Below, one piece after another: positions 19,817 to 22,402 of a stretch of DNA of 64,000 bases. The notes under the pieces are model-generated. The model was not told the origin of the DNA and did no database searches. It saw only the letters and a list, made by a program, of their open reading frames with translations. The position numbers and the translations under genes were made by a program. Origin of the DNA: an uncultured SAR116 cluster alpha proteobacterium (GTDB taxonomy: Bacteria; Pseudomonadota; Alphaproteobacteria; Puniceispirillales; Puniceispirillaceae); the NCBI GenBank assembly GCA_902573725.1, contig CACGLE010000002.1:1-64000 (forward strand). The letters are read 5' to 3'. Position 1 is the stretch's first letter. Each line of letters opens with the position of its first letter.

Positions 19817-20869
19817 CTATTTCACGATCTGCCAGTAAACTTCCATAAATGGATCAAAAATCGTAATTTTTCCTTCTTTAGTTTCAAGATTTTCGGGCAT
19901 TTTAAGAGGTATATCTGTTTTTTTCAAAGTTAACCTTTCCTTATTATGTGGCATCCCATAAAATTCAGCGCCATGCAGACTTAAGAATCCCTCTAATCTA
20001 TTCAGCACTCCTAAATTATCAAATAATTGAGCTAAGATCTCAACTGCAAAAGGCGCATTAAAAATGCCAGCACACCCGCAAACATCAATTTTTGTATTGT
20101 CTAAATGAGGGGCACTGTCAGTACCAAGAAAAAATCGTTTATCACCATTGGTCGCTGCTCTTATCAAAGCCAATCGGTGAGACTCCCTCTTTAACACCGG
20201 CAAACAATAATAATGGGGTTTAATACCCCCAGAAAGCATAACGTTTCGGTTTACAACCAAATGATGAGGGGTGATGGTTGCAGCTAAATTTTTTTCTTCA
20301 TTAAGAACATAGGAAACTGCTTGCTCAGTTGTAATATGCTCCATTACTATCTTCAGATCTGGAAACTCATTTCGTAAAGGCACTAAAATTTTTTCAATAA
20401 AAACTGCCTCTCGGTCAAATATATCTATCTGCGGATCAGTAACCTCACCATGAATTAATAAAGGTATACCCTGCTCCGACATTGCCCCTAGAACTGAATA
20501 TACACCGTTAATATTTTTAACGCCATTAGATGAATTTGTCGTCGCGCCTGCAGGGTACAATTTAACAGCTTTAATAATTTTTTTCCTATAGGCTGAGACA
20601 ACATCGTCTGCTTCTGTTTCTTCAGTTAAATAAAGGGTCAGCAATGGCTCAAATTTTATATCTTTATCTAAACAGGCCTTTATTCTGTTGGCATATAGGC
20701 GAGCATCTTCCCCTGTTATTATAGGAGGAACGAGATTTGGCATTATAATAGCTCTTGAGGCCCAGCGATAACTTTCAGGCAATACGGCCTTCATTATCTC
20801 CTCATCCCTAACATGTAAATGCCAATCATCAGGTTTTGTAATAACAAGCTGGTTTGGAGATATTTTCAT
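19817..20869 (-). CDS. pyrC: Dihydroorotase (class II, E. coli type)
   Basis: DDWHLHVRD metal-binding motif, KLYPAGATTNSSNGV, GTDSAPH. Confidence 0.95.
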   Translation of the reverse strand: MKISPNQLVITKPDDWHLHVRDEEIMKAVLPESYRWASRAIIMPNLVPPIITGEDARLYANRIKACLDKDIKFEPLLTLYLTEETEADDVVSAYRKKIIKAVKLYPAGATTNSSNGVKNINGVYSVLGAMSEQGIPLLIHGEVTDPQIDIFDREAVFIEKILVPLRNEFPDLKIVMEHITTEQAVSYVLNEEKNLAATITPHHLVVNRNVMLSGGIKPHYYCLPVLKRESHRLALIRAATNGDKRFFLGTDSAPHLDNTKIDVCGCAGIFNAPFAVEILAQLFDNLGVLNRLEGFLSLHGAEFYGMPHNKERLTLKKTDIPLKMPENLETKEGKITIFDPFMEVYWQIVK

Positions 20870-20918: not shown

Positions 20919-22142
20919 TTATGTTTCAAAACCAATAATTAAATCGCCTAACATGTTTGCCGTATAGCATGCAAGAGTCCATCCTAAATGTCCATGACCG
21001 GTGTTATAAAAAATATTTGGTTCTTTGCCTTGCGAGACAAGGGGCATCATATTTGGCCTCATTGGTCTCAATCCAGCCCAAGGTTGGGCATCCTTAGTCG
21101 AAACTTCAGGAAAATTTGTTTCCACCCAGTTTTTAAGAGGTTTGATACGAGCGTCCAAAATATCCAAATTATGCCCGACTATTTCCGCAGTACCAGCAAC
21201 CCTAAATCTATTCTTCCCCAACCTTGAGGTAACTATTTTTGCTTCATCATCAAGTAAACTTACATTAGGAGCCTTTTTCTGAGAAATTAAGTCAGTTAAT
21301 GGGACTGTAATCGAATAACCTTTAACTGGATAAATATTTACCCTATCCCCAAGCATTTTTGCAAACTTGTGACTGGCAACACCTGCACAAATAACACACA
21401 TGTCGAAAGTTTCTATTTGGTCTTGAAAATCCTTGTGTTTGAATTCTATTTTTACTTCTGAACCCAATACTTTGATCGATTTTACATCTGCACTTTGTTG
21501 AAAATTGACACCACGATCCATTGCAACTCTTGCTAAATGAGATGTAAATTTATGGATATCACCTGTGGAGTCTGTTTTGGTGTAGTATCCACCTACAAAT
21601 TTTTTTTCTAAATTAGGCTCTATCGTTAAAATTTCATTCTCTGTCAATCTGCGACGCTCTAATCCTCCTAATGCTAAAAGTTCATTTACTCTGTGAGCAT
21701 GCTCAAATTCTCGGTGACTTTTATAAATGTGTAAAATACCACAATTTGATTTATCAAATTCTATTCCAGCATCATCAACAATTTTCTGCATATATTTGCG
21801 AGACTCAATTGCCATCTTAACAGTCTGTATAGTATTTTTTTTATAGTTTTTGGTTTGAAGCAAAAATTCGGCTAGCCAACTTAGTTTATGCCAATTAGGC
21901 CAAAAATTTATTTTGAGTGGAGCATCTTTTTTCAATAACCAAGTTACCGCTTTTAGAATGGTCCCAAAGTGATTCCAAACTTCTGCATTGCTAGCTGAAA
22001 GTTGCCCCCCATTAGCATAAGAAGTCACAATAGAGGGGTATCTCTGTTTTTCAAAAACAGTCACTTTATATCCAAGTTCACTCAATACAAATGCTGTGGT
22101 TACCCCAGTAACACCAGCTCCAATAACTGCAATTGTTTTCAT
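20919..22142 (-). CDS. dadA: FAD-dependent D-amino-acid dehydrogenase (DadA-like)
   Basis: IAVIGAGVTGVTTAF dinucleotide fold, VTSYANGGQLSASNAEVW, PWAGLRPMRPNMMPLV. Start set to ATG 22142 preceded by GGAG. Confidence 0.88.
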   Translation of the reverse strand: MKTIAVIGAGVTGVTTAFVLSELGYKVTVFEKQRYPSIVTSYANGGQLSASNAEVWNHFGTILKAVTWLLKKDAPLKINFWPNWHKLSWLAEFLLQTKNYKKNTIQTVKMAIESRKYMQKIVDDAGIEFDKSNCGILHIYKSHREFEHAHRVNELLALGGLERRRLTENEILTIEPNLEKKFVGGYYTKTDSTGDIHKFTSHLARVAMDRGVNFQQSADVKSIKVLGSEVKIEFKHKDFQDQIETFDMCVICAGVASHKFAKMLGDRVNIYPVKGYSITVPLTDLISQKKAPNVSLLDDEAKIVTSRLGKNRFRVAGTAEIVGHNLDILDARIKPLKNWVETNFPEVSTKDAQPWAGLRPMRPNMMPLVSQGKEPNIFYNTGHGHLGWTLACYTANMLGDLIIGFET

Positions 22143-22189
22143 TTCTAAAGACTCCAAGATGTACGTATGCCATCAATTGACATTCAAAA

Positions 22190-22402
22190 TACACCTCGCC
22201 TGTCTCTTTACCTGAGAGTTTCCCATAAGAAAATTTCTTTTCTACACAGTTTCCCCGTCGGTGGACTTTTTTCAGTCACTTTCCAGACTGTTCACACTGA
22301 TTGACCCTTTTGCCTGAGAGATTATGAGGCTTGTGCTCCTTCGGCGCTGTATATAAATCCTAAAACCTTAAGTTTATTAACAGACTCTCCCAATCAGCGT
22401 TT
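22190..22402 (-). promoter_or_regulatory. Tandem glycine riboswitch (two aptamers) in the dadA-like 5' leader
   Basis: Minus strand aptamer 1: gggagag...cagcgccgaaggagcacaagcctcataatctctcaggcaaaaggg; aptamer 2: gtctggaaag...ccaccgacggggaaac...gggaaactctcaggtaaagagacag. Both match the glycine riboswitch core and lie directly upstream of the gene. Confidence 0.93.

Follow-up and report, generated by a model that had tools for sequence, protein, structure and literature searches.

A tandem glycine riboswitch upstream of a dadA-like gene suggests a glycine dehydrogenase in a SAR116 lineage without GcvP

Why should a glycine riboswitch precede a gene whose family is annotated as a D-amino acid dehydrogenase? 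The question was raised by a locus on contig CACGLE010000002.1 of an uncultured SAR116 cluster alphaproteobacterium, of which a stretch of 64,000 nucleotides (the window) was analyzed. Few features of a bare sequence hint at what substrate an enzyme uses, and linkage to a riboswitch is among them. The targets named for glycine riboswitches are gcv genes, transporters, serine genes and the malate synthase gene of SAR11 (PMC2211319; PMC3766115; PMC12452182). In a 2025 survey the glycine riboswitches of Pseudomonadota were found on gcv genes only, and COG0665 proteins appeared only as thiO under TPP (PMC12452182). In a search covering openly accessible article texts we found no paper linking a glycine riboswitch to dadA or a D-amino acid dehydrogenase, and we claim no priority. 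The riboswitch class is well known, and its dadA target is under-recognised.

A preliminary description of the locus had placed two adjacent glycine aptamers on the minus strand, directly upstream of the dadA-like gene. Covariance-model searches confirmed this arrangement, although the proposed search with RF00504 recovered only half of it. Aptamer 1 scored 53.3 bits against a gathering score of 32 (its E-value in Table 1 was computed for a search of 64 kb with all 4227 Rfam families) and was the sole RF00504 match in the genome to which the window belongs (1.45 Mb, 64% complete). Aptamer 2 was absent from the Rfam matches in the window, even at E<=10. As Rfam was blind to it, we built a covariance model, R1, from 21 aligned second aptamers that belong to dadA leaders in other lineages, with none from the window's genus. 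R1 matched at 22292-22191 with 64.1 bits (E=1.3e-14), demonstrating that the tandem is real. The next-best place for R1 in the window was aptamer 1, with 16.9 bits; a weak match at 629-729 (13.3 bits, E=0.2) was rejected as due to chance. The limits first given for the locus, 20919-22402, proved exact: the RF00504 match has its 5′ end at 22402, and the stop codon of the dadA-like gene finishes at 20919.

Table 1. Position of the riboswitch elements and genes in the window
Feature	Position	Strand	Basis
Glycine riboswitch aptamer 1	22292..22402	(-)	RF00504, 53.3 bits, E=3.9e-08, full model 1-94
Glycine riboswitch aptamer 2	22191..22292	(-)	R1 model, 64.1 bits, E=1.3e-14 over whole window
Aptamer 2 P1, 5′ strand GUCUG	22284..22288	(-)	Pairs with CAGGC 22198-22202; R1 structure alignment
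5′ arm of predicted anti-Shine-Dalgarno helix (AGAGAC + CGAGGUGUAU)	22189..22207	(-)	MFE folds; co-variation with Shine-Dalgarno region across relatives
3′ arm of predicted sequestering helix (GUACAUCUUG, GA loop, GUCUUU), contains UUGGAG	22147..22164	(-)	MFE folds
Shine-Dalgarno-like UGGAGU	22151..22156	(-)	9-14 nt before ATG; best anti-Shine-Dalgarno match
dadA-like gene, FAD-dependent oxidoreductase, proposed glycine dehydrogenase	20919..22142	(-)	NF009074/PRK12409, 614.8 bits; PF01266, 1e-61
pyrC (dimeric dihydroorotase)	19817..20869	(-)	TIGR00856, 401 bits; 49 nt behind dadA

The element resembles the tandem RF00504 riboswitch found on gcvT in having two aptamer cores, in their order, in the short linker and in an Rfam match above the gathering score; aptamer 2 also shares the consensus CCGAMGGRG...CUCUCAGGU...ACAGA. 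It differs from the gcvT type in the gene controlled, a dadA-like oxidoreductase in place of gcvT or a transporter, and in a GGAAAG in aptamer 2. The core GGAGAG / CCGAAGG / CUCUCAGG is complete in aptamer 1. Two deviations had been noted in aptamer 2, of which one stands: GGAAAG is atypical and confined to the window's genus, where it is common to the dadA leaders, whereas the 21 second aptamers behind R1, all of other lineages, have GGAGAG without exception. The other, CCGACGGGG, is normal for second aptamers, CCGACGGGG/CCGAAGGGG being their ordinary form in the lineage (e.g. L038 and L064). The tandem in the window is predicted to bind glycine, and aptamer 2 with its GGAAAG may bind it poorly.

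Control at translation had been suggested from a ribosome-binding site close to the ATG and the lack of an obvious intrinsic terminator. Both observations hold: an RBS-like UUGGAG is located 10-15 nt before the ATG at 22142, and a search of the minus strand from aptamer 2 to the ATG gave no intrinsic terminator. MFE folds of the leader contained a helix composed of AGAGAC/GUCUUU and CGAGGUGUAU/GUACAUCUUG, in which UUGGAG is embedded. Its 5′ arm shares bases with the 3′ strand of aptamer 2 P1; the helix and P1 are therefore mutually exclusive, and glycine binding should free the Shine-Dalgarno sequence. The predicted exposure of this sequence in the window rose only from 0.34 to 0.45, part of which is expected from simply removing aptamer 2. 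Because that removal also takes away pairing partners, the change in accessibility is weak evidence, and a swap test was used instead.

In this test the pairing between the 3′ strand of aptamer 2 and the Shine-Dalgarno region was compared for own and swapped partners in 72 non-redundant leaders. Own pairs were superior overall (z=-11), and remained so when partners were exchanged within lineages only (own-pair duplex -21.2 vs -18.9 kcal/mol, z=-8.0). The within-lineage value was -4.4 (P<1/5000) for SAR116 alone, -6.4 for Burkholderiales and -3.8 for others. The pairing in L060 is an example: UCCAGAAC...GAGGGG pairs with CCCCUC...GUUCUGGA, with UGGAG as the Shine-Dalgarno sequence. No significant co-variation was seen among the Rhodobacteraceae (z=-1.0), so that their leaders (L037, L040, L048, L050, L067 and others) may use another expression platform. 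The duplex of the window taken alone was not significant (p=0.07), and the prediction of an ON switch here accordingly leans on relatives. Overall, the dadA 5′ leader combines RF00504 with an expression platform whose Shine-Dalgarno-sequestering helix is supported by co-variation across relatives, from which we infer a translational ON switch.

This reading of the leader could be wrong in two ways. The riboswitch might be an OFF switch, or act on transcription (e.g. Rho-dependently). Both ON and OFF glycine riboswitches have been described (PMC6944388), and the fold of the window opens the Shine-Dalgarno sequence only modestly. We nevertheless consider this unlikely in view of the absence of a terminator and of the co-variation of the Shine-Dalgarno region with a strand that it can occupy only at the expense of aptamer 2 P1. 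In addition, glycine riboswitches on catabolic genes are usually turned on by glycine. It is also possible, though doubtful, that aptamer 2 is a degenerating "ghost" in the window's genus and that only aptamer 1 binds glycine. Three congeners (L032, L123 and L124) have CATCAGG in place of CUCUCAGG in aptamer 2, with aptamer 1 kept, and their aptamer 2 scores with R1 are 40-45, compared to 60-66 in most other congeners; the GGAAAG shared by the genus points the same way. In catabolic (GCV) contexts aptamer 1 is the conserved one and aptamer 2 decays to a ghost (PMC6944388), a rule which the erosion in these three congeners resembles, and their aptamer 2 is a possible intermediate towards a ghost. 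Against this, aptamer 2 of the window scores as high as those of other genera and its P1 and P3 pairing is intact.

The gene behind the leader encodes a protein of 407 aa, a FAD oxidoreductase of the DAO fold, from a start at 22142 which is common to relatives. It passed the NF009074/PRK12409 cut-off (614.8 vs 494 bits) and missed those of E. coli-type DadA, PRK00711 (353.7 vs 383 bits), and of the ThiO glycine oxidase, TIGR02352 (119.7 vs 250.8 bits). The curated name of NF009074/PRK12409 is "D-amino acid dehydrogenase". Its identity to E. coli DadA is 32%, compared to 54-61% for riboswitch-linked relatives outside its own genus; its nearest named records, 94% and 80% identical, are from SAR116-cluster alphaproteobacteria. 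A putrescine/spermidine-type transporter and pyrC lie behind dadA, and a membrane pyrophosphatase lies in front of it in divergent orientation. The dadA-pyrC adjacency is kept in the SAR116 relatives L031, L032, L034, L036 and L038. With this recurrence and the short distance between the genes, pyrC is possibly co-transcribed with dadA, and the glycine switch might thereby also affect a pyrimidine gene.

The association of riboswitch and gene was then followed across genomes. In 61 genomes of the SAR116 family, RF00504 was located directly upstream of all 17 genes above the PRK12409 cut-off. Among the 80 nearest relatives in a search of 84,980 species genomes, 78 carried RF00504 upstream of dadA. 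These 78 span Alpha-, Beta- and Gammaproteobacteria (Rhodobacteraceae, Comamonadaceae, Cupriavidus, Polynucleobacter, Stutzerimonas, Bradyrhizobium and others). The remaining two, L047 and L074, had no RF00504 above the gathering score upstream of dadA; a weak R1 match (16.4 bits) was present in L047. Independently, 150 Pseudomonadota genomes were sampled evenly; PRK12409 was found in ten, the window's own included, and tandem aptamers were directly upstream of the gene in 9/9 of the others. No riboswitch of this type was found upstream of six distant DadA paralogues in the same sample (E. coli dadA and five others). In a tree the riboswitch-linked genes grouped together, and the switch seems to have been lost twice within this group. 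The pairing of riboswitch and dadA in almost every relative examined suggests that the enzyme oxidises glycine and replaces the usual machinery of glycine breakdown.

Two unusual records were encountered among the loci. A 385-kb contig labelled Akkermansia muciniphila (L085, CALQKH020000002.1) carries a Burkholderiales-like dadA with a glycine riboswitch; the encoded protein and that of the window share 57% identity, and the contig is probably mislabelled or mis-binned. In Comamonas testosteroni NFYY023 (L066, 3001-4206) the frame of the riboswitch-linked dadA is broken after 181 aa, by a frameshift or a sequencing error.

A line of evidence on the substrate comes from engineered Cupriavidus necator, where DadA6 was called a glycine oxidase and deleted as a glycine sink (PMC11879842; PMC12421819). 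To locate this gene, the published colony-PCR primers for the dadA6 deletion were used as sequence tags in Cupriavidus genomes. The reverse primer, with one mismatch, was found about 1.2 kb upstream of the riboswitch-dadA locus in C. lacunae (L108). Its site, again with one mismatch, was present in 10/60 Cupriavidus genomes, and in 7/7 loci fetched it was followed by the tandem motif and a dadA 91-97% identical to that of L108. The forward primer matched C. lacunae exactly and was oriented back towards dadA; the later part of the contig bearing it matches DNA just behind dadA in a relative. In C. lacunae the primers thus flank the riboswitch-dadA locus, so that DadA6 very probably belongs to the PRK12409 family and, as judged from primer sites in sister species of C. 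necator, the riboswitch-linked Cupriavidus gene is very probably dadA6. The presumed C. lacunae orthologue is 56% identical to the window protein and has the same riboswitch upstream, although Cupriavidus is a betaproteobacterium with another gene neighbourhood. No riboswitch beside dadA6 was mentioned in the accessible C. necator literature. We infer that the substrate of the window enzyme is glycine, used by a glyoxylate route.

GcvP was absent, and no GcvT exceeded the cut-off, in 10/10 genomes of the window's genus, five of them with a completeness of 90% or more and contamination of no more than 5%. The congener G035 gave only a 40-bit GDC-P match in a frame of 536 aa. The genus does have GcvT-fold proteins of about 820-1030 aa, which could be sarcosine/dimethylglycine enzymes. 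Among the 61 family genomes, three had both dadA and GcvP, 14 dadA only, 34 GcvP only and ten neither (Fisher P=3e-5); in the 28 good genomes the same split was 3, 9, 14 and 2 (P=0.0015). Both P values overstate independence because the genomes are related, and are uncorrected for phylogeny. Among the genomes with neither, G026 and G030 (98-99% complete) possess neither a full GcvP nor a PRK12409 DadA. Of 20 riboswitch loci away from dadA that were read in the rest of the family, 19 had the riboswitch on gcvT, and in the remaining one the contig ended too early. SAR116 genera that possess the glycine cleavage system (GCS) mostly bear the riboswitch on gcvT; in a few GCS-bearing genomes, e.g. 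G002, G006, G032 and G033, gcvT has no riboswitch. Malate synthase G was found in 7/10 genomes of the window's genus, including all five good ones, and was not found in the window's own incomplete genome; in the genomes searched the malate synthase of the genus had no riboswitch linkage.

A comparison can be made with SAR11 (Pelagibacter), also a marine alphaproteobacterium, where a glycine switch on glcB ties glycine to the glyoxylate/malate route, beyond glycine cleavage alone. The difference is that the switched gene of the window would itself make glyoxylate. In SAR11 gcvT, too, carries a riboswitch (PMC2704228), in contrast to the window's genus with its lack of GcvP and of a GcvT above cut-off.

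Could the enzyme nonetheless be what its family name says? A true D-amino acid dehydrogenase acting on D-alanine or D-serine might sense glycine as a proxy, for example where an excess of glycine disturbs the use of D-alanine in the cell wall. The sequence is of DadA type, the NCBIfam equivalog name was assigned with 614.8 bits, and the protein shares with E. coli DadA the DAO fold and the character of a FAD-dependent amino acid dehydrogenase. E. coli dadA, however, has dadX as its partner and no glycine riboswitch, while no dadX lies beside the gene in the window and a glycine riboswitch is near-universal upstream of its relatives. Taken with the low identity to E. coli DadA, the missed PRK00711 cut-off and the description of dadA6 as a glycine oxidase (PMC11879842), this makes such a dehydrogenase improbable. 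Less probable still is an enzyme for sarcosine or another N-substituted glycine, regulated by glycine as its product or relative. Sarcosine oxidases are among the DAO-fold FAD enzymes, one weak match in the PDB is annotated as sarcosine oxidase, and the long GcvT-fold proteins of the genus could handle sarcosine or dimethylglycine; if they do, that role is already filled. Control by a product would be expected to be of the OFF type, whereas the platform favours ON, and the dadA6 evidence points to glycine. Among solved structures only distant glycine oxidases matched the window protein, the closest by sequence being of the ThiO type (TIGR02352; PDB 7cyx, 4ysh and 1ng3), with weak similarity.

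We consider it probable that the tandem glycine riboswitch turns on a respiratory glycine dehydrogenase which makes glyoxylate and replaces the missing glycine cleavage system. When glycine is low, translation would be blocked because the Shine-Dalgarno region is paired with the bases immediately following aptamer 2 and with its 3′ strand. In glycine-filled aptamers this strand would be held in the P1/P3 of aptamer 2 itself, the Shine-Dalgarno sequence would be freed and the enzyme made. Surplus glycine would then be converted to glyoxylate and ammonia, with electrons passed to the respiratory chain, and the glyoxylate would enter the malate synthase reaction. The dadA-like enzyme would in this way stand in for the glycine cleavage system in the window's SAR116 genus.

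We also lean towards the wider proposal that the whole PRK12409 family of Proteobacteria is misnamed and comprises dedicated, riboswitch-controlled respiratory glycine dehydrogenases (glycine to glyoxylate), an alternative to the GCS and, in several SAR116 genera, its replacement. The linkage of riboswitch and gene in the even sample, in the SAR116 family and among the nearest relatives gives a glycine function to a family that is widespread and carries the annotation D-amino acid dehydrogenase, in agreement with the independent work on C. necator dadA6. If this is true, some members of the SAR116 clade oxidise glycine by way of glyoxylate, with no cleavage into one-carbon units, which would bear on marine carbon and nitrogen cycling.
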